64,000 nucleotides of DNA from an uncultured Colwellia sp. (GCA_913058145.1 CAJXQM010000006.1:54174-118173), one strand, 5' to 3'. Counted from the first letter of the stretch, positions 1,751-62,902 are shown. The notes: generated from the sequence alone by a model not told the origin. Translations and numbers: made by a program.

Positions 1751-4662
1751 TAGTGCGTAACCACTATCATGCGAACCGCTTCAAAGGTTAACTGCGCCTT
1801 ATCAATATAATGACTTAGTTCATCTTGTTGATGGGCAAGAAAGTCAATTTCTGCTTGGCGAACACTGGGGTTAATGGCTTTCAATGCGGTTAACCTTTGT
1901 TGCTCTTGGCCTAGCTTGCTTTGCATGCTCTTTAACGCTTTTGCTTGAATAGCCGAAATTTGTTGTTCTCCATGAAATTCTGCTTTGGTCACTAGTGGCG
2001 CAATTTGTGATTTTAATGCTTTAATTAATTGCAAAGCCATTATCTTTTTAACCGGTGTGAGTTGTTTATCCAACACGGCTTCACTAACTTTATCGCCAAG
2101 ATCATTACCTTTTTTATCCACTAATATACGAATAGGTGTTGTCGGTAAATATCGGCCAAGTTGTAAATGTGCAGGTGCTGTGGCTTCTACTGTGAATAAA
2201 CATTCAAGGAAAAAAGTGCCCACAGGTAAGGCTTCTGCTTTTAATAAACCGATGCTGGCATTACCAATTTCATCGCTAAGCACTAAATCTAAAACGCCTC
2301 GCACCATGGGGTGATCCCACGTTAATAATTGATAATTTTCATTGATTAACGCGGTATCACGATCAAAGGTTATTGTTGAGCCATCTTCAGGTAAACAAGG
2401 AAAGTTGCTATTAAGCATATGTTCACTTTGATTTAATGCAATGGCATTGTCGGCTTTGTCATCTTGTTGAACGCCAAATACATCTAAGGCTTGAAACATA
2501 AATTGAGGTAAGTCTATTTGTCTGTCATTGCGCTCTATTTTTTTCACTAACTCATGAGCGCGGCCTTGGCCTGATGAATTTAGTTCAAGTAACTTATCGC
2601 GGCCAGATTCTAGCTCGGCTTTAATCTTACAGTGCTTTTGCCAAGTATCACTAATCAATTTCTCTGCTATTGATGAGGCTTGTTGTGCGGTTAATGCTAA
2701 CGATAATAACTGCTGACCATAGGCTTCATAGACTATTCGGCCAGTAATGCAGGTATGTTCAAACGCTTGCATGCCCTGTTGATACCAATCAAACAATAAA
2801 TGTTGGGCTGAATCTTCAAAGTAAGGGGCATGTAATCTAATAACTTCAGTTTGTCCGATACGGTCAAGGCGGCCAATACGCTGTTCTAATAAATCTGGGT
2901 TAAGAGGCAAATCAAATAACACTAAATGATGTGCAAACTGGAAGTTTCGACCTTCACTGCCAATTTCAGAACAGAGTAATAGCTGTGCGCTGTCTTCATC
3001 TTGGGCAAAGTAGGCGGCGGCTCTATCACGTTCAAAAATAGATAAACCTTCATGAAATACTGCTGCGCGAATTCCTTCTTTAACACGTAATACGGCTTCT
3101 AAATCTATCGCGGTTTGTGCATGCGCACAGATAACGAGTACTTTTTCTTTTTTTAATGATTTGAGTAAGTCGATCAAATAGTCAACACGTGGATCAAAAT
3201 CTGTCCATTTTTCACTTTGATGATCAAGGCCATAAAGCATTTCTGGCGTGAAAATAAACTTAGCTTGTTTAGAGTTTGCTAGAGCTTCTGGACAATCACT
3301 CAGCATAAACTCATTGATTGTATCTTGGTACTGTTCAGGCATCGTTAGTGGTGCGGGATGTATTTCGCGTGCCGGAAAGCCTTTAATGGTGTTACGTGAG
3401 TTTCTAAATAAAATGCGACCAGTTCCATGTCTATCTAGCAGTTGCTTTAGTAACTGTTGACGTACTTCTGTTTGATTCGCTGAGTTATCGCTATTAAGTG
3501 TGACTAACTGTTCACTAATATCGGTCTCTTTTAATAAAGCGATTAAGGTACTTTCTTGATCGTTAGTTAATTGTTCTTTTTCAACTAAGGCATTCGCGGC
3601 ATCAGCCACTTCACTATAATGAGACTCTTCTTCAATAAATTTTTGATAATCATAAAAACGGTCGGAATCAAGTAAGCGTAATCGAGCAAAGTGACTTTCA
3701 TGGCCTAATTGATCCGGTGTGGCTGTTAAGAGTAAAACCCCAGGAATAACTTGAGCCAATTGCTCAATACATTGATACTCTATACTTGGGTTATCTTGTT
3801 GCCAATTTAAATGATGGGCTTCATCAACTACCATTAAATCCCAATCTTCGCTGATTAATGCTTCATACCATTTAGGATTTTTAGTGATAAAACCTAAATT
3901 AACTAAAACTAACTGCTCAGTACTAAAAGGATTACTGTCATCTTCTCCGGCGGTTTCAACACATCGGTCATGATCAAAAATACTAAATTTAAGGTTAAAG
4001 CGACGCAGCATTTCTACTAACCACTGATGCATCAATGATTCAGGTACTATGATCAAAATACGTTGGGCTCTGCCACTCACCAGTTGCTGATGAATAATTA
4101 AACCCGCTTCAATTGTTTTTCCTAAACCCACTTCATCGGCAAGTAATACTCTAGGAGCAAAGCGGTTCCCCACTTCATCGGCGATATAAAGTTGATGCGG
4201 AATAAGGCTAACTCGTCCCCCGGTTAAGCCCATTAACTCTGATTGTTGTTGTTCATATTGGTAACGTAAGCAATCTTTGCGCAGGCGAAACCAATCAAGA
4301 CGGTCTACTTGGCTATTGAGTAAGCGATCGTGTGGTTTATTAAATTTAATAAAGTGATCTATCATCACTTCTTTTAAAGATATGGCTTCCAAGGTGTCTT
4401 GTCGTATACCGTGGTAAGTTAAAATGCCATGAGCTTCGGTGCTTGATTCAACCTTTAACGTCCAGCCTTCATGGCTTGGAATAAGATCGCCGTCATTGAA
4501 AATTACGCGGGTTAATGGCGCATTAGCTTTTGCATACTGACGAGATTCACCCGTGGCAGTAAAAACAATATTAACAAATCGGTGTTCTATACCTGTGACG
4601 GTCCCTAATCCTTGATCTGATTCACTGTCACTGATCCAACGTTGGCCGGGTTGAAATGGCAT
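1750..4662 (-). CDS. rapA: RNA polymerase-associated ATP-dependent helicase RapA (HepA)
   Basis: SWI2/SNF2 motifs (LLADEVGLGKTIEAGLI, DEAHH, LLTATP, EQRIGRLDRIGQ). The start MPFQPGQRWISDSESDQGLG fits the RapA N-terminus better than the 5-codon-longer ORF starting at 4677. Confidence 0.95.
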   Translation of the reverse strand: MPFQPGQRWISDSESDQGLGTVTGIEHRFVNIVFTATGESRQYAKANAPLTRVIFNDGDLIPSHEGWTLKVESSTEAHGILTYHGIRQDTLEAISLKEVMIDHFIKFNKPHDRLLNSQVDRLDWFRLRKDCLRYQYEQQQSELMGLTGGRVSLIPHQLYIADEVGNRFAPRVLLADEVGLGKTIEAGLIIHQQLVSGRAQRILIIVPESLMHQWLVEMLRRFNLKFSIFDHDRCVETAGEDDSNPFSTEQLVLVNLGFITKNPKWYEALISEDWDLMVVDEAHHLNWQQDNPSIEYQCIEQLAQVIPGVLLLTATPDQLGHESHFARLRLLDSDRFYDYQKFIEEESHYSEVADAANALVEKEQLTNDQESTLIALLKETDISEQLVTLNSDNSANQTEVRQQLLKQLLDRHGTGRILFRNSRNTIKGFPAREIHPAPLTMPEQYQDTINEFMLSDCPEALANSKQAKFIFTPEMLYGLDHQSEKWTDFDPRVDYLIDLLKSLKKEKVLVICAHAQTAIDLEAVLRVKEGIRAAVFHEGLSIFERDRAAAYFAQDEDSAQLLLCSEIGSEGRNFQFAHHLVLFDLPLNPDLLEQRIGRLDRIGQTEVIRLHAPYFEDSAQHLLFDWYQQGMQAFEHTCITGRIVYEAYGQQLLSLALTAQQASSIAEKLISDTWQKHCKIKAELESGRDKLLELNSSGQGRAHELVKKIERNDRQIDLPQFMFQALDVFGVQQDDKADNAIALNQSEHMLNSNFPCLPEDGSTITFDRDTALINENYQLLTWDHPMVRGVLDLVLSDEIGNASIGLLKAEALPVGTFFLECLFTVEATAPAHLQLGRYLPTTPIRILVDKKGNDLGDKVSEAVLDKQLTPVKKIMALQLIKALKSQIAPLVTKAEFHGEQQISAIQAKALKSMQSKLGQEQQRLTALKAINPSVRQAEIDFLAHQQDELSHYIDKAQLTFEAVRMIVVTH

Positions 4663-4780: not shown

Positions 4781-5470
4781 CTAAATAGTCGTCATTATAC
4801 CGATAAACCAAGCGAAAAAAGGGGCTAACACCGCGGTTAAAATACCACTGATAACTAATGCTAAAGAACTAAAAGCCCCTTGTTCATTACCCACTTCCAT
4901 TGCTTTTGCGGTGCCAATGGCATGCGCACTACACCCCATTGCTAAACCTTGTGCTTGTGGATTCGTGATTTTACAAAACTTGAGTAGACTAAAGCCACCT
5001 AGCGCCCCTAATAACCCAACGGCAATAACCACCGCGGCAGCCAACGATGCTAGTCCTCCTGTTTCGTGGGCCACAGCCATTGCTATTGGGCTAGTCACAG
5101 ATTTTGGCAATAAAGAAAGTAATAATACTTTATCGTCAGTTAATAATAAGGCGATAGATATACAAGTTGAAATGGCAATAACAACACCAAAAGAGCAGCT
5201 GACCATTATTGCCTTAAATTGCTGTTTTATTTGTTGTATTTGACAAAATAATGGGATAGCAAGCGCAACTACAGCGGGCTCTAAAAGCCAAATAAAAGGA
5301 ATATTTGCTGTTGCGTAATCTTGGTAAATAAGTGGGGTAAAACTAAAAAGTCCAATAAAAAATAAAATACTCACTAAAAGAGGATTAGCTAATGGGCTTT
5401 TTATTGGGCTTAAAAGCTTACGGGCAGCCAAAAAAATCAATACCGTAGCAATAAGATAAAGATAAATCAT
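4781..5470 (-). CDS. LrgB family protein (CidB/LrgB membrane protein)
   Basis: LrgB-like: KSVTSPIAMAVAHETGG, AHAIGTAKAMEVG; overlaps the upstream LrgA-like gene. Confidence 0.88.
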   Translation of the reverse strand: MIYLYLIATVLIFLAARKLLSPIKSPLANPLLVSILFFIGLFSFTPLIYQDYATANIPFIWLLEPAVVALAIPLFCQIQQIKQQFKAIMVSCSFGVVIAISTCISIALLLTDDKVLLLSLLPKSVTSPIAMAVAHETGGLASLAAAVVIAVGLLGALGGFSLLKFCKITNPQAQGLAMGCSAHAIGTAKAMEVGNEQGAFSSLALVISGILTAVLAPFFAWFIGIMTTI

Positions 5471-16968: not shown

Positions 16969-17147
16969 AAATAGAAAGGCTACTGAATAAGAGTGAATAT
17001 TGTATTCTACGATATTAGAACTTTAATCGACAATTATAATTCCCGTATTCGTATAAAAAAGTCCATTGACAAAAAAGCCATAAAAATGCTTAAATAGCGC
17101 CGTCCCTAATATTAACTTTCTGGTTTTGTGCCATGAAGTTTCAAAGG

Positions 17148-17385
17148 GGCCAGAAGAGGAGCGTTAACCAGGTAGTTATCATTGCGTTGTTTACAACGCA
17201 CAGAGATCAAACTTTGCTAATGATAATGAGGGGGATTAACGCCGAGATAATACTGATTTGATTCGGTATTTATCGGTTGTTTTCTTGCTAGATTTACCTA
17301 GAAAGAGCGGGCTGAATCCCAACAACTGTCACTGTTAGCTAAATGATTTTATTTATTTAGCTTAATGAGTGGAGAGCTTCTGGCC
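17148..17385 (+). ncRNA. Lysine riboswitch (L-box)
   Basis: P1 arms GGCCAGAAG (17148-17156) and CTTCTGGCC (17377-17385); L-box-like segments AGAGGAGCGTTAACCAGGTAG, GGGGGATTAACGCCGAGATAA, CTGAATCCCAACAACTGTCACTG; directly upstream of dapA. Confidence 0.92.
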
Positions 17386-17481
17386 TTTGCATAATAACCA
17401 ACAAGCACTGTTAAAGTACTTTTCTCGGTTTTTAGTAAATGCCTAAAAGTTCTCCGAACCAATCTGCTATAAGCAGTAACA

Positions 17482-18483
17482 ATGAGTTCGAGAGCAATGA
17501 ATCAAAAGACATCTATAAACATATCACCCATAGCACCTAATGTTATCCCTGTGAGCGATTGCCCACTATGGACCGCACTAGTTACGCCTTTTCATCAAGA
17601 CGGTAGCATAGACTTCGACAGCTTGGCTGAAATTGCCAAGGCACAAGTACACGCAGGTAATGGACTTTTACTCCTAGGAAGCACGGGCGAAGGGCTTGCC
17701 TTAACGAATGATGAGCAGTTCTCTGTTGTTGAGTTTATTTGTAACTTACAAGACACGTTAGCAATAAAATCGCCATTAATGGTCGCTGTTGGTGGTTATA
17801 ACTTACCTGAACAAATTAACTGGATAAATCGTTGTAATACACTAAATATTCACAGTTATTTATTAGGTACGCCTCTTTACGCAAAGCCAGGAGAAGTGGG
17901 TCAAACTGCTTGGTTTAAAGCCTTGTTAGATGCTGCCCAATTCCCTTGTATGTTATATAACGTGCCATCACGTAGTGGTGTTGAAATTCCGGTAGGCACA
18001 GTACAAAGTTTACAAAATCATCCTAATTGTTGGGCAATGAAAGAAGCCAGTGGTGATTTGAATAAATTTTTGAATTACCGTCAACAATGCCCCAATATAG
18101 ATATATATACTGGCGAAGATGCCATGGTGCCATACCTTGTGCCTGCAGGGGTTAAAGGCTTGGTATCTGTGTGCGCTAATGTCTGGCCCAAAGCGACTAA
18201 AGCTTATGTTGAACTTTGCTTAGCTGGGCAAACTCAAAACATGTTCCCCTTGTGGAACAATGCTGTAGATGCAATTTTTAGTGTGGCAAACCCTATTGCA
18301 GTTAAAGCATTGATGCATCAGCAAAAAGCGATTAGCACTCCGACACTTCGCGCACCATTAACTCACACTGAAATAACCGATAACACAGCATTATTGGCTG
18401 TTAATGAGCAAATTAATCAATGGTTAGCACACGCTAGCCAAACTTCTTTTATAAATAGAACCGAAAATAGGAATATCGCATGA
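17482..18483 (+). CDS. dapA: 4-hydroxy-tetrahydrodipicolinate synthase (DapA family)
   Basis: ALVTPFHQDGSIDFDSL, LLLGSTGEGLALT, MLYNVPSRSGVEIP, WAMKEASGDL; under a lysine riboswitch. May be translated from an internal ATG. Confidence 0.9.
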   Translation: MSSRAMNQKTSINISPIAPNVIPVSDCPLWTALVTPFHQDGSIDFDSLAEIAKAQVHAGNGLLLLGSTGEGLALTNDEQFSVVEFICNLQDTLAIKSPLMVAVGGYNLPEQINWINRCNTLNIHSYLLGTPLYAKPGEVGQTAWFKALLDAAQFPCMLYNVPSRSGVEIPVGTVQSLQNHPNCWAMKEASGDLNKFLNYRQQCPNIDIYTGEDAMVPYLVPAGVKGLVSVCANVWPKATKAYVELCLAGQTQNMFPLWNNAVDAIFSVANPIAVKALMHQQKAISTPTLRAPLTHTEITDNTALLAVNEQINQWLAHASQTSFINRTENRNIA

Positions 18484-19229
18484 AATGGCAAGATGTTATA
18501 GCACAACTAGAAACGGGCGCACTACGCGCGGCAAGTCAAGATGAAAACGGTAATTGGCATGCCAATGTTGAAGTAAAACAGGGGATTTTAGCCGCTTTCA
18601 AAGCGGGCGTTAATATTAGTTTCGATGGCAATTATCAAGGTTTTGTCGATAAAAACAATTTACCTGCTCGTCAATTTAGCCCAGAAGACGGTGTACGTTT
18701 AGTGCCAGGTGGCTCATCAGTACGTGCTGGCGCACATGTGGCTCCGGGCGTTATTATTATGCCTCCTGCTTATATTAATGTAGGTGCTTTTGTTGATAGC
18801 GGTACTATGGTTGATAGTCATGCATTAATTGGTTCATGTGCCCAAGTCGGTAAAAATGTACATGTGAGCGCAGCGGTACAAATTGGTGGTGTGTTAGAGC
18901 CAATCGGTGCTAGCCCTGTTATTATTGAAGACGACGCCTTCTTAAGTGCTGGCGTAGTAATTGTTGAAGGGATTGTAGTGAAAAAAGGTGCGGTATTAGC
19001 ACCGGGCGTGTCTTTATCTAAATCAGTACCGGTATATGATTGTGTTAATAAAATTATGCGTGAAAAAGGCGCTGAAATTCCTGAACGTGCTGTGGTTGTT
19101 CCAGGCACTCGTCCTGTTAAAGGCGAATGGGCCGAAGTACAAGGTTTGAGCATGGCCTGTGCATTAATCGTTAAATATCGTGATGAAAAAAGTGATGCGT
19201 CATTAGAATTAGAATCAATTCTAAGATAA
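18480..19229 (+). CDS. dapD: 2,3,4,5-tetrahydropyridine-2,6-dicarboxylate N-succinyltransferase
   Basis: Left-handed beta-helix hexapeptides; RLVPGGSSVRAGAHVAPGVIIMPPAYINVGAFVDSGTMVDSHALIGSCAQVG; ATGA overlap with dapA. Confidence 0.95.
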   Translation: MKWQDVIAQLETGALRAASQDENGNWHANVEVKQGILAAFKAGVNISFDGNYQGFVDKNNLPARQFSPEDGVRLVPGGSSVRAGAHVAPGVIIMPPAYINVGAFVDSGTMVDSHALIGSCAQVGKNVHVSAAVQIGGVLEPIGASPVIIEDDAFLSAGVVIVEGIVVKKGAVLAPGVSLSKSVPVYDCVNKIMREKGAEIPERAVVVPGTRPVKGEWAEVQGLSMACALIVKYRDEKSDASLELESILR

Positions 19230-19230
19230 T

Positions 19231-19360
19231 AGTTAGCGACTAACCACCGCGTTGCTGTATGGCCCGAATTAGGCGTTAAAAGTACTCATTGATAGTCATC
19301 AATTCCGTGCTTTTTTCTTTAATTTGAATCATACAGCAACGCGCTGATTGGTCACTGTAT
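19231..19360. repeat. Intergenic hairpin element, copy 1 (conserved core TACTCATTGATAGTCATCAATTCCGTG)
   Basis: Arms AGCGACTAACCACCGCGTTGCTGTATG and CATACAGCAACGCGCTGATTGGTCACT are near-complementary and flank the core at 19283-19309, which recurs at 50836-50862. Confidence 0.75.
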
Positions 19361-19361
19361 A

Positions 19362-19409
19362 ATAGTAATTGAAATAATGATTGGACTCATTCATTATTTC
19401 AATTGCTAT
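19362..19409. other. Long near-perfect hairpin upstream of the LysA-like gene
   Basis: AATTGAAATAATGA (19367-19380) / TCATTATTTCAATT (19391-19404), extended outward to about 19 bp with one G-T pair. Confidence 0.8.
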
Positions 19410-19449
19410 AAACAATCGTTACAGCAGAAAACTTTAAAAGAAAATTATT

Positions 19450-20688
19450 ATGACAAAACCTAACTGGTTCGATACCCGTATTGAAAATGCCTTACTTGAA
19501 CATCAATCACCTGATGATGAACAAGGATACTTTGTTTATCAACTTGATGCCTTAAAAAGTCATCTTGAACAATTGCAGCAACAAGAGGTGATTAAGTTAT
19601 GGTTTGCAGTGAAAGCTAACCCGCTTTCGAAAATCATTCAAACACTTGATAGTGCAAATTTTAATTTTGATGTCGCTAGTACTGGTGAATTAGCGCAAGT
19701 ATTAGCACAAGGCATTAGCCCTGATCGTATTTTAAATACGGGCCCAGCTAAATCTAAAAAGCAGTTAACTGACTTTGTTAAGTTAGGCGTACAAACTTTT
19801 GTGGTTGAGAGCTTAAATCAACTGACTTGGTTAAATGAGGTTATTGTGGAGCAAGCCTCAACTGAGCCAAGTCTCGCTAAAAAACCGACTGTGTTACTTC
19901 GAGTACAACTTCAATGGCCTGAGGGTGAAAAAAATCCATTAGGCGGTAATAGTCTAACGCCATTTGGTTTGTCTGTTGAAGAATGGCAAAACGTGCAGGT
20001 AAGTGATTATCCTAATTTAGATATTTGCGGTCTACATATTTTTCAATGGGGCAATATGCTCAGTAATGAAAAGATGTATTCGTTATGGAGTCAGATGGTT
20101 GCACCACTAACAAGTCTTGCTGCTGATATTGGCATGGAGCTAAAAATTCTCGATTTAGGTGGCGGTTTAGGCATTGATTATTTAGATGAAGGTAAACAAT
20201 TGTCATGGCAACAAGTTATCAATGACTTAGCCGATATTAAAGTACAATCAGGCGTTGAAGAGCTTTGGCTTGAATTAGGTCGATTTGCTGTTGCTGAGTG
20301 CGGTTATTATGTCGTACCTGTTGTTGACAGAAAAATGAATTATGCTCAAGAACAATTAGTTTTAGCAGCGGGCATCAATCATCTCATTCGTCCTGCAATT
20401 ACTGAACAACCTTTTCCGGTTACTTTATTAAGAAACTCTAACGCACCAAGCCAAGCATTTGATCTCCACGGACCGTTATGTACTAGTTTGGATAAGCTCG
20501 GACATTTACCTTTACCTAACGATGTTGCTGTTGATGACAAGTTAGTGTTTGGTTATTGTGGCGCTTATGGTTTTACTGAAAGTATGCCTTTTTTCTTATG
20601 TCATCAATTAGCCGCAGAATATGTTTTTCAAGCGGGTGCTTTGGTTGAAATAAGGCCTGCACAACCAGCAACTTCTTATTTGGCTTAG
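19450..20688 (+). CDS. Fold-type III PLP-dependent decarboxylase (diaminopimelate decarboxylase / LysA-like)
   Basis: YFVYQLDALKSHLEQL, WFAVKANPLSKII (PLP Lys), FDVASTGEL, LDLGGGLGIDY, LHGPLCTSLDKLG, FGYCGAYGF; located in a lysine biosynthesis operon. Confidence 0.82.
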   Translation: MTKPNWFDTRIENALLEHQSPDDEQGYFVYQLDALKSHLEQLQQQEVIKLWFAVKANPLSKIIQTLDSANFNFDVASTGELAQVLAQGISPDRILNTGPAKSKKQLTDFVKLGVQTFVVESLNQLTWLNEVIVEQASTEPSLAKKPTVLLRVQLQWPEGEKNPLGGNSLTPFGLSVEEWQNVQVSDYPNLDICGLHIFQWGNMLSNEKMYSLWSQMVAPLTSLAADIGMELKILDLGGGLGIDYLDEGKQLSWQQVINDLADIKVQSGVEELWLELGRFAVAECGYYVVPVVDRKMNYAQEQLVLAAGINHLIRPAITEQPFPVTLLRNSNAPSQAFDLHGPLCTSLDKLGHLPLPNDVAVDDKLVFGYCGAYGFTESMPFFLCHQLAAEYVFQAGALVEIRPAQPATSYLA

Positions 20689-20697
20689 GGTTATATT

Positions 20698-21870
20698 ATG
20701 ATTAATGTCTTTAAAAAAGAGCTTATGCATGTGGGCGAAATGGCCAGTGGTGTAAAACTGACTGTACCTGTTTATTCCTATAAGCCAGAAGAAAGCACCG
20801 CACCTAATGTTTATATTCAAGCGAATATGCACGGTGCTGAAGTACAGGGTAATGCTGTTATTTTTCAACTGCTTGAATTACTGAAGTATTGTGAAATTGA
20901 AGCGAATATTACCTTAGTGCCATATGCTAACCCTATCGGGTGTAATCATAAAAATGGTGAGTATACATTAGGTCGATTTGATCCCATTACAGGTGAAAAT
21001 TGGAATCGCATGTATCATTTTGATGAGGCGATTATCTCGCCCTTTGTTGAAGGACACATTGATGCGAGTGAAGCGGAAATACAAACTGATTTTGAACAAC
21101 TGTTGTTAGATCAAATTGAAAATAAATTAGATCATAATAGTTGGGGTTTAACTACGGGTCAGCGTATCGCTTACCAATTACAACGTATGGCGCACCAAGC
21201 TGATTTAGTATTAGATCTCCATACTGGGCCTATCTCTAGTAAGCATTTATATTGCCCTGAATACACAAAAGCTAGCGCTAACTATTTTGATATACCTCAC
21301 ACTATTTTTATTCCTAATGACTTTGATGGTGCAATGGATGAAGCGACTTTTTGTCCGTGGTGGAGCTTGCAACAAGCCTTTGAAACCAAGGGGCGAAATT
21401 TTATTATGGGTAAGGGCGCTTTTGCTAAAGAAAGCTTTACCGTTGAGCTGGGTTCGCAAGAGCAAATCGACTTAGTGGAAGCGCATGAAGATGCTCTGAG
21501 TATTTTGAGTTATTTACAGTATAAAGGTGTTATTGCGGGGAATAATGATTCAGCGACTTTGCCGCAAAATTTCTTACCTCAGCAAATGACGCGTTATGCA
21601 TGTTATCTAAAAGACTATAAAGCGCTCTACTCACCGATGGGTGGCATGGTCGATTATTTAGCTGAATTTGGTAAACCACTTGCAGTAGGTGAACCTTTAG
21701 CACGCATTTTACGTATGGATAATTACTGTAGTGAAAGCAGCGGAGATGGAGGTCCATTGCACAATATTTTTCTTGATTGTGAAGTGTTACCTATTTTACA
21801 CTTTGCTTCGGCAAGCGTGAACCAAGGTACGGAACTTTATAAAGTATTTGTAAACTATTTTGAAATTTAA
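20698..21870 (+). CDS. M14-family zinc deacylase (succinylglutamate desuccinylase/aspartoacylase AstE/ASPA-like)
   Basis: Zn-site patterns NMHGAEVQGN and DLVLDLHTG, GSQEQID; last gene of the dapA-dapD-lysA-like operon. Confidence 0.8.
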   Translation: MINVFKKELMHVGEMASGVKLTVPVYSYKPEESTAPNVYIQANMHGAEVQGNAVIFQLLELLKYCEIEANITLVPYANPIGCNHKNGEYTLGRFDPITGENWNRMYHFDEAIISPFVEGHIDASEAEIQTDFEQLLLDQIENKLDHNSWGLTTGQRIAYQLQRMAHQADLVLDLHTGPISSKHLYCPEYTKASANYFDIPHTIFIPNDFDGAMDEATFCPWWSLQQAFETKGRNFIMGKGAFAKESFTVELGSQEQIDLVEAHEDALSILSYLQYKGVIAGNNDSATLPQNFLPQQMTRYACYLKDYKALYSPMGGMVDYLAEFGKPLAVGEPLARILRMDNYCSESSGDGGPLHNIFLDCEVLPILHFASASVNQGTELYKVFVNYFEI

Positions 21871-22385: not shown

Positions 22386-24806
22386 ATGTTTTCAAACAAC
22401 ATCATCATGCCTTATAACAAGGTATTTACGGCCTGTGCACTATGTTTATCTGTTTCTGCATTAAGTTATACCTCACCTGTTTTATCACAAATAATTTCAG
22501 GAAAGATTGTTAATCATCAAGACAAACCTATTAGTGGTGCACAGGTTAAAATTAATGGTCGTGATAAAGTCATTACTACTAATGCTCAGGGCTTATTTAC
22601 GTTATCAAACCTATCTGCAGGTAAAATTGAATTACATACTAGCGCAAAGAATTACGCGCATGATAATCAATATATCATTATAAATCAGGATGATATTTTA
22701 GGACTGAATATTCAATTATCACCATCAGTGATGGAAGTATTAGATGTATATGCAACGCCATTACATACATCCACCATTGAATCAGCCTTACCGGTTAATG
22801 TGATTGCAGGAGATGATTTAAAACTAAAACAAGCATCGACACTTGGGGAAACGCTAAAAAATGAAGTGGGTGTTCACTCTAGTTTTTATGGCTCAGTGGC
22901 GAGTAGCCCTATTATTCGTGGCCTAGATGGACCAAGAGTATTAATTACTCAGAATGGCTTAGATGCCGGAGATGCATCACGTGTTGGTCCTGACCATTCG
23001 GTAGCAACGGAAACAAGCACTGCAACACAAATTGAAGTACTACGTGGCCCCGCTACGCTCTTTTATGGTAGTGGTGCTATCGGTGGTGTAGTTAATATTG
23101 TTGATAATAGAGTACCAACATCAAGTGATACAATTGCGGATTGGTTGTTACAATATAACGATATATCTAATGAAAAACAGGGTTCTTTTTCTGTACAAAC
23201 GGGTAATGATAACATTGCTGTTCATTTAGATGCTTTTTGGCGTGATGCTGGCGATTATGTATTGCCGAAAGACTTTGATTCTCATGTTGATGAAGAAGAG
23301 CACGAAGATGAAGAAGAGGAAACTCAACCTACTCATTTAGTAAGCTCAAACTCTCAATCGAGTGGTTTTACCTTAGGCTCTAGCTATTTATTTGACCAAG
23401 GTTTTATTGGATTCTCTTACGGTACAATGAGCCGAGATTATGGTATTCCTGGCCATGCTGCTCATGCTGAAGAGTCGGTAGGCATTGAGGAGGGAACTAA
23501 AGCTGAAATGGAGCAAGATAGATTTCAGTTATTAAGTGAGGTGAATTTTGATCAGAGCTTTATCAAGCAGTTAGCGTCTAAGTTTGCTTATACTGATTAT
23601 CAGCACCAAGAAATTGAAGATGGCGCTATTGGCACAATCTTCAAGAATAAAAGTATGGAGATGAAAGCAGATTTATATCATCAAGAATATAAAGGGTGGC
23701 AAGGTGCATGGACACTTCATTATAAACACTCTGATTTTGAGGCGGTAGGAGAAGAAGCGTTTGCTCCCCCTTCAAAGACCGACAGCTTTGCCATCGCTTG
23801 GTTAGAAGAAAAGCACTTTGGTGATCTATTATTACAGCTTGGCGCTAGAGCTGAGCAAGTAACTATTGAAACCAACGATACAATTATTGGTTTCTCAGAT
23901 CACGACACTGAACAGGTATCATTTTCTGAAAAGAGCTTTAATCCCCTAAGTACTTCGTTAGGTTTAGTTTGGGATTATCAAACAGGATATAATCTAGGTT
24001 TGTCTTTAGCTGTATCGCAAAGAGCACCGTCAGCAGCTGAGCTGTTTTCTTTTGGTTCGCATATTGGTACGGGTACTTTTGAAGTAGGTGCAATGTATGA
24101 CATTGAGCAAGAGGGTGATGAAAACCATGTAGAATTATCATCACAAAATCCTGATATTGAAACCTCATACAGCGTAGATTTTACTTGGCGAAAGTTTGAG
24201 GGAGATTTCGGCTTTGTTGTGAGTGCTTTTTATAATCATATTAACGATTATTATTATCAACAAGATACTGGTCTGCTATTTGAGAGTGATCACGATGAAC
24301 ATGCGGCAGATGAACATGCGGCAGATGAACACCAAGACGAGGAAGGCTCACCTATCTTAGTTTACCAGCAAGATGATGTTGATATGTACGGCCTTGAAGC
24401 TGAATTTGTTTATCAAATATCTAGTCCGCTTAAAGTTAAAGTTTTTGGTGATTATATTAATGCTCAGTTGTCCGACGGGGGGGATTTACCAAGAATTCCG
24501 CCCATGCGATTGGGTGTGTCAATGAATTATCAAGGCAATAGCTTTGATAGCGAATTAAGTGGTAATCATTACTTTGAGCAAGATGATGTTGCGCTATTAG
24601 AAACAACAACACGTGCTTATACTTTAGTTGATTTTAACTATAACTATTATCTTGATAATATGGGTTTTAGAGACAGTGATATGATTGTGTATGTTAAAGG
24701 GCAGAACTTAACGGATGAAGTGGCTTTCGTACACTCGTCATTCCTTAAAGATATTGCTCCACTACCAGGGCGAAATTTTAGCATAGGCATACGTGGTAGT
24801 TTTTAA
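22386..24806 (+). CDS. TonB-dependent receptor with His/Asp/Glu-rich loops (probable zinc receptor, ZnuD-like)
   Basis: Carboxypeptidase-regulatory-like N-terminal domain, plug domain (ATLFYGSGAIGGVVNIVD), His/acid-rich inserts HVDEEEHEDEEEETQPTH and HDEHAADEHAADEHQDEE, C-terminal beta-strand ending in F. Confidence 0.85.
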   Translation: MFSNNIIMPYNKVFTACALCLSVSALSYTSPVLSQIISGKIVNHQDKPISGAQVKINGRDKVITTNAQGLFTLSNLSAGKIELHTSAKNYAHDNQYIIINQDDILGLNIQLSPSVMEVLDVYATPLHTSTIESALPVNVIAGDDLKLKQASTLGETLKNEVGVHSSFYGSVASSPIIRGLDGPRVLITQNGLDAGDASRVGPDHSVATETSTATQIEVLRGPATLFYGSGAIGGVVNIVDNRVPTSSDTIADWLLQYNDISNEKQGSFSVQTGNDNIAVHLDAFWRDAGDYVLPKDFDSHVDEEEHEDEEEETQPTHLVSSNSQSSGFTLGSSYLFDQGFIGFSYGTMSRDYGIPGHAAHAEESVGIEEGTKAEMEQDRFQLLSEVNFDQSFIKQLASKFAYTDYQHQEIEDGAIGTIFKNKSMEMKADLYHQEYKGWQGAWTLHYKHSDFEAVGEEAFAPPSKTDSFAIAWLEEKHFGDLLLQLGARAEQVTIETNDTIIGFSDHDTEQVSFSEKSFNPLSTSLGLVWDYQTGYNLGLSLAVSQRAPSAAELFSFGSHIGTGTFEVGAMYDIEQEGDENHVELSSQNPDIETSYSVDFTWRKFEGDFGFVVSAFYNHINDYYYQQDTGLLFESDHDEHAADEHAADEHQDEEGSPILVYQQDDVDMYGLEAEFVYQISSPLKVKVFGDYINAQLSDGGDLPRIPPMRLGVSMNYQGNSFDSELSGNHYFEQDDVALLETTTRAYTLVDFNYNYYLDNMGFRDSDMIVYVKGQNLTDEVAFVHSSFLKDIAPLPGRNFSIGIRGSF

Positions 24807-50792: not shown

Positions 50793-50898
50793 CAGCTAAT
50801 CTCATTGCCATTTGGCACTGTAGCAGCATCAGAAATACTCATTGATAGCCATCAATTCCGTGTTTCTTCTTTGCTACAACACCTAATGGCTGCGAGCT
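50793..50898. repeat. Intergenic hairpin element, copy 2 (core TACTCATTGATAGCCATCAATTCCGTG)
   Basis: Core at 50836-50862 differs by one base from 19283-19309; arms AGCTAATCTCATTGCCATTTGGCACTGTAGCA / TGCTACAACACCTAATGGCTGCGAGCT pair imperfectly with each other and differ from copy 1. Confidence 0.75.
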
Positions 50899-62730: not shown

Positions 62731-62747
62731 CAATAATTAATTTGATT

Positions 62748-62875
62748 TTAGGCCGGTCTCCGGACTTAAAACAGCGATTTTGTTACACAAACATCTGTTT
62801 ATTACCGTTGCGGGGGCAGCATAGGTTTTACACCTATTTCCCGTTTAATTTAACTAAGTAACGACTTAAGCTAAA
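62748..62875 (-). ncRNA. Cobalamin riboswitch upstream of btuB
   Basis: Minus strand: AACGGGAAATAGGTGTAAAACCTATGCTGCCCCCGCAACGGTAA...AAGTCCGGAGACCGGCC, including the B12 box. Confidence 0.96.
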
Positions 62876-62902
62876 CACCTAAAATTTTACGTTAATGCTC
62901 AA

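Follow-up and report, generated by a model that had tools for sequence, protein, structure and literature searches.

A lysine riboswitch operon of Colwellia and related bacteria as a possible lysine-only branch of the diaminopimelate pathway

In the textbook diaminopimelate (DAP) pathway, lysine is made from meso-DAP, so that lysine and cell wall supply depend on the same steps as far as LysA. The succinylase branch of this pathway runs through DapD, DapC/ArgD, DapE, DapF, and LysA, and lysine riboswitch control is known for it. Lysine riboswitch operons of Alteromonadales listed in 2017 include dapA-dapD-lysA-hypothetical1-hypothetical2 in Pseudoalteromonas haloplanktis and dapD in Colwellia psychrerythraea (PMC5584792). 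Here, we describe what is very likely the same operon at positions 17146 to 21870 of a 64,000-nucleotide stretch of DNA (the window) from an uncultured Colwellia sp. (GCA_913058145.1 CAJXQM010000006.1:54174-118173), whose relatives are Colwellia, with protein identity up to 93%. We hold with moderate confidence that this operon encodes a branch of the DAP pathway that serves lysine only: N-acyl-LL-DAP would be decarboxylated first and deacylated second, N2-acyl-L-lysine would be the last intermediate, and lysine would be regulated apart from the meso-DAP destined for the cell wall.

All parts of the operon lie on the plus strand. A full-model match to the lysine riboswitch aptamer RF00168 (17146-17387; 66.5 bits against a gathering threshold of 30, E = 3.7e-15) precedes dapA2 (17482-18483), which encodes a 4-hydroxy-tetrahydrodipicolinate synthase of 333 amino acids that passed TIGR00674 (248.5 bits; cutoff, 206). 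This gene overlaps by 4 bases with dapD2 (18480-19229), whose product of 249 amino acids is a paralog of tetrahydrodipicolinate N-acyltransferase. Downstream are lysA2 (19450-20688), encoding a fold-III pyridoxal 5'-phosphate (PLP) decarboxylase of 412 amino acids that we predict to act on N-acyl-LL-DAP, and an astE-like gene (20698-21870), encoding a zinc deacylase of the M14 AstE/ASPA family (390 amino acids) with N2-acyl-L-lysine as its predicted substrate. A first-pass annotation of the window had named a lysine riboswitch followed by dapA, dapD, lysA-like, and AstE/ASPA-like genes, and the covariance model, open reading frames (ORFs), and family profiles confirmed all of them. The operon is conserved across Colwellia, Thalassotalea, and Pseudoalteromonas, and in other families of the same order the arrangement is riboswitch-(lysC)-dapA-dapD2-lysA2-astE, with RF00168 also detected at homologous operons and lysC of the lysine-sensitive aspartokinase III type. 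One further genome carries dapB-dapD2-lysA2-astE, with no riboswitch detected there. Since the riboswitch and gene order are conserved across several families, their arrangement is not due to chance.

The genes of the operon form a second set, regulated by lysine, since canonical dapE (G000:C2:139796-140923; 535 bits against a cutoff of 362), dapF, lysA (480 bits), and dapD (477 bits), as well as another dapA (at G000:C17), are all found elsewhere in the same genome. The first-pass annotation had proposed that the M14 enzyme serves as a non-orthologous DapE or acts in a related lysine/DAP step, and had suggested searching the full genome for canonical dapE and lysA; both were found, so neither is missing. 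Canonical DapE was present in all 41 genomes searched, and in each of the 25 genomes of this genus that were searched, including that of the window, canonical dapE was accompanied by an AstE-like gene and canonical lysA by a lysA2-like match. Because dapE and the AstE-like gene co-occur in this way, the M14 enzyme is not a replacement for DapE. The broader part of the proposal, a deacylase in a related lysine/DAP step, fits well with what follows.

In the branch that we propose, DapA2 and DapD2 would produce an N-acylated intermediate, which an aminotransferase encoded outside the operon would convert to N-acyl-LL-DAP. LysA2 would then decarboxylate the free L-amino acid end of this compound. 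The N2-acyl-L-lysine so formed would be deacylated to L-lysine by the AstE-like zinc enzyme, bypassing DapE, DapF, and canonical LysA. Controlled by the lysine riboswitch, such a branch would run apart from the canonical genes, which provide the cell wall with meso-DAP. We infer which substrates are used, in what order the last two reactions occur, and which acyl group is carried (more likely succinyl than acetyl). Gene order in the operon parallels the proposed order of steps.

The main argument that LysA2 works on an acylated substrate comes from the distribution of dapD2 and lysA2. Among 80 named loci, which were fetched via astE, both genes were present in 69 and both were absent in 11 (an ORF-based count overlooked one dapD2, which was recovered by tblastn). 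On the tree of astE, the loci without the pair belong to at least four lineages, within Colwelliaceae or close to it, and a search for lysA2 elsewhere in genomes lacking dapD2-lysA2 returned only matches at the level of canonical LysA, or none. Thus, dapD2 and lysA2 behave as one unit. A LysA2 acting on free DAP would not need an acyltransferase of its own; since lysA2 depends on dapD2, we expect LysA2 to act on the acylated product of DapD2. DapD2 itself scores above the cutoff of NF008808 (291 bits; cutoff, 204) and below that of TIGR00965 (184 bits; cutoff, 375), and it departs from the DapD sequences compared at otherwise invariant positions, including W143 and R187, and also at E189 (Escherichia coli numbering).

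The sequence of LysA2 is consistent with such a substrate. In Thermotoga maritima LysA, Arg249 and Arg285 bind the distal carboxylate and Glu315 binds the free amino group at that end, while a lid contributes to reading the D-carboxylate; an E315T mutant loses most DAP activity and gains activity on 2-aminopimelate, which has the carboxylate and lacks the distal amine (PMC8277567). Transferring these roles by alignment places Arg278 and Arg314 of LysA2 at the distal carboxylate and Thr345, within Cys344-Thr345, at the position of the Glu, with Lys55 as the PLP lysine. All 81 unique full-length LysA2 sequences have the Thr and both Arg, and every one of them has the motif CT[SA]xD. By comparison, all 14 canonical LysA sequences checked, among them those encoded in this or related genomes, have CE[ST]xD as well as the lid motif TH..ISTG, which is found in none of the 81 LysA2 sequences. 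LysA2 forms a single clade (support, 100/100), which groups with SbnH and other decarboxylases of the Cys-Thr-Pro type (92/96) and not with LysA (89/91), a placement to be read with caution given the long branches. SbnH decarboxylates an amino acid that carries citrate on its other amine (PMC7857480). Together with a score of 177 bits in TIGR01048, below the cutoff of 297.9, these residues and this tree place LysA2 in a different subfamily, the SbnH-type group, and not with canonical LysA, so that the reading of this gene as an ordinary lysA no longer holds; we see this difference as central to understanding the operon. N-acyl-LL-DAP has a distal carboxylate, lacks a free amine at that end, and presents an L center for the reaction, and so matches the substrate expected for LysA2, which would be L-specific. 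Predicted structure models (mean predicted local distance difference test scores, 83.8 and 74.6) confirm the folds and do not distinguish between substrates.

The AstE-like protein matches PF24827 (AstE_AspA_cat) at 93.3 bits against a cutoff of 25. Residues H45, E48, H175, R93, N103, R104, and E250 are invariant in 91 AstE-like sequences; by analogy with aspartoacylase, we take His45, Glu48, and His175 to be zinc ligands and Arg93, Asn103, and Arg104 to be substrate residues, while the base Glu250 was assigned by alignment to E251 of CphZ, the residue changed in its E251A mutant. The active site of the deacylase is intact. Among solved structures, the Shewanella proteins 3lwu and 3fmc are closest (~50% identity over the full length), and the nearest characterized relative is CphZ (~22% identity), which is reported to cleave beta-Asp-Lys. 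This dipeptide is N2-(aminosuccinyl)-lysine, of which N2-succinyl-lysine is a near-isostere, and the analogy favors, short of proof, N2-succinyl-lysine over N-succinyl-DAP as substrate of the AstE-like enzyme.

The dapA-dapD2-lysA2 part of the operon is also present in three genomes of another family, which we take to be relatives of Francisella because one of them contains FslC (838 bits). In these Francisella-like genomes, a lysine riboswitch is followed by lysC-dapB-dapA-dapD2-lysA2; neither dapE nor dapF was found in the operon stretches. In one of them (G561), a second lysine riboswitch precedes an aminotransferase gene, and an amino acid permease follows lysA2. The two lysine riboswitches of one Francisella-like region (L142) lie at 3470-3649 and 5038-5217, one 5' of an aminotransferase gene and the other 5' of lysC-dapB-dapA-dapD2-lysA2-permease, and this riboswitch-linked aminotransferase may catalyze the acyl-DAP step. 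Short dapB-like genes, encoding 225 amino acids, occur in dapD2-lysA2 operons of two distant lineages (L028, 1002-1679; L141, 10202-10879), scoring 107 and 82 bits, respectively, below the dapB cutoff of 122. Several other candidates were rejected: the gene after lysA2 in G457 is not a deacylase gene but encodes a dihydroorotase (732 bits), the second LysA-like match in Shewanella-like G029 is an ornithine-decarboxylase-like gene, and the extra LysA-like match in G190 belongs to an adenylation-domain biosynthetic cluster and not to lysine genes. In that unrelated cluster (L042, 3856-10031), the LysA-like decarboxylase gene lies beside an adenylation-type ligase gene. Plasmid collections contained no close relative, only matches below 60% identity.

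Several observations weigh against the proposed branch. The AstE-like gene, with intact catalytic residues, is retained where dapD2-lysA2 is absent: riboswitch-dapA-astE occurs at seven loci (riboswitch confirmed in the four tested), riboswitch-lysC-astE occurs in Shewanella-like G029, and astE stands alone, without a riboswitch, at four loci. In such lineages, the enzyme would be without its main proposed substrate. Because astE is kept there, it must have another use as well, perhaps on N-succinyl-LL-DAP or a dipeptide. In the Francisella-like operons, on the other hand, lysA2 has no adjacent astE. An operon in a genome lacking canonical lysA would be the strongest genomic proof, and no such genome was found among the 41 plus three Francisella-like genomes. 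For LysA2, the residue argument draws on sequence alignment and on mutants made in an enzyme that is D-specific, and the stereopreference of LysA2 is inferred; the changed residues of DapD2 make the acyl group and its donor uncertain; and the identity that links the AstE-like enzyme to CphZ is low.

The persistence of astE without dapD2-lysA2 favors an alternative that we consider unlikely, namely, that the AstE-like enzyme duplicates DapE as an N-succinyl-LL-DAP desuccinylase regulated by lysine and that LysA2 is a variant decarboxylase of free LL- or meso-DAP, the operon boosting the ordinary route when lysine is short. Where astE accompanies riboswitch-dapA or riboswitch-lysC only, the N-succinyl-LL-DAP made by canonical DapD is its obvious substrate. 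However, DapE is already present, LysA2 is without the Glu by which LysA recognizes the free amino group at the distal end (PMC8277567), and lysA2 is tied to dapD2 rather than to astE, which is unexpected if free DAP is used. The changes in DapD2 at W143, R187, and E189, some of which give residues in common with DapH, would suit an acetyl version of the shunt, chemically insulated from the succinyl branch: DapD2 would be an N-acetyltransferase, N-acetyl-LL-DAP would be the substrate of LysA2, and the final reaction would fall to an N2-acetyl-lysine deacetylase. Among wider relatives of that final enzyme, DoeB and aspartoacylase do remove acetyl groups. We regard this version as improbable, since DapD2 keeps the C-terminal region of DapD that is absent from DapH and passes the succinyltransferase model NF008808 but not TIGR03532, and since CphZ substrates bear a succinyl-like acyl group.

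The position of CphZ as nearest characterized relative, together with the occurrence of astE without lysA2 or alone without a riboswitch, would also agree with a role outside biosynthesis, in which the last enzyme is a lysine-regulated, CphZ-type isoaspartyl dipeptidase that obtains lysine from the beta-Asp-Lys of a cyanophycin-like polymer. This seems more doubtful still: identity is ~22%, the gene is consistently linked to lysC, dapA, dapD2, and lysA2, and no cyanophycin genes were seen among the operon neighbors, although cyanophycin synthetase was not searched for genome-wide. Least credible of all, in our judgment, is that a DAP pathway intermediate is turned not into lysine but into another product, for example, a precursor of a siderophore or a polyamine. 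SbnH, a siderophore enzyme, is closest to LysA2 in sequence, but the operon has no siderophore synthetase gene, it is preceded by a lysine riboswitch, and related operons include genes for lysine-sensitive aspartokinase III and dapB.

The window has several further features. Between dapD2 and lysA2 is a long imperfect palindrome (19235-19356, plus strand; minimum free energy, -78.1 kcal/mol; z, -10.5) that is conserved in the same place in many Colwellia loci at ~80 to 87% and has a partial copy at 50833-50872 (90% over 41 nucleotides); it may be a member of a repeat family or an mRNA element. A further inverted repeat lies just 5' of lysA2 (19362-19409), with arms of 22 nucleotides that are 91% complementary. 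Downstream of the operon, and adjoining it in many Colwellia loci, is a gene for a TonB-dependent receptor (22386-24806), for which the best NCBIfam match was the ZnuD zinc piracy receptor at 372 bits, below the cutoff of 950. A cobalamin riboswitch (89.2 bits) is located on the minus strand at 62734-62897.

A literature search, with most subscription papers outside its reach, returned nothing relevant on N-succinyl-lysine as a biosynthetic intermediate, and the branch predicted here is likely new as a variant of the DAP pathway. If it exists, a branch that leaves the pathway earlier would separate lysine from cell wall supply and explain why these bacteria keep dapA, dapD, and lysA-like genes in two copies each. 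It would also correct annotation in marine Gammaproteobacteria and Francisella-like genomes, where many genes are labeled "diaminopimelate decarboxylase" or "M14 metallopeptidase," assign a function to two solved Shewanella structures, and offer metabolic engineers a lysine route without DapE, DapF, or LysA.

Taken enzyme by enzyme, the operon resembles several known systems. LysA2 shares the PLP fold III with SbnH (N-citryl-diaminopropionate decarboxylase) and FigC/FslC (N-citrylornithine decarboxylase), whose substrates are acylated on the distal amine. Like LysA2, SbnH has Cys-Thr in place of the Cys-Glu of LysA and lacks the LysA lid motif. However, identity between the two is ~27%, the citrate-binding Lys347 of SbnH is Leu, Met, or Ile in LysA2, and LysA2 is linked to lysine genes and not to a siderophore synthetase gene. 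Similarly, the AstE-like enzyme shares with the cyanophycin dipeptide hydrolase CphZ (8ein, 8eip) the motifs HxxE...H, LGRFD..TG.N.NR, and DEA..PW and the base Glu (E251 in CphZ, E250 here), and CphZ substrates are N2-acylated basic L-amino acids, as predicted for the AstE-like enzyme; the linkage of CphZ is to cyanophycin genes, whereas that of the AstE-like enzyme is to lysine biosynthesis. The Shewanella proteins 3lwu and 3fmc, for which no function has been assigned, belong to the same subfamily, and a related genome has such a gene beside lysC under a lysine riboswitch, although lysA2 and dapD2 are absent there. The 2017 listing treated the genes of the operon as ordinary dapA, dapD, and lysA, with no mention of paralogy or of a desuccinylase/aspartoacylase (PMC5584792). 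Finally, the operon has in common with the succinylase branch DapA, a DapD-type acyltransferase, and lysine as end product, but it is a paralogous set beside a complete canonical one, its decarboxylase and deacylase come from other subfamilies, and in its predicted order decarboxylation precedes deacylation, without DapE or DapF.

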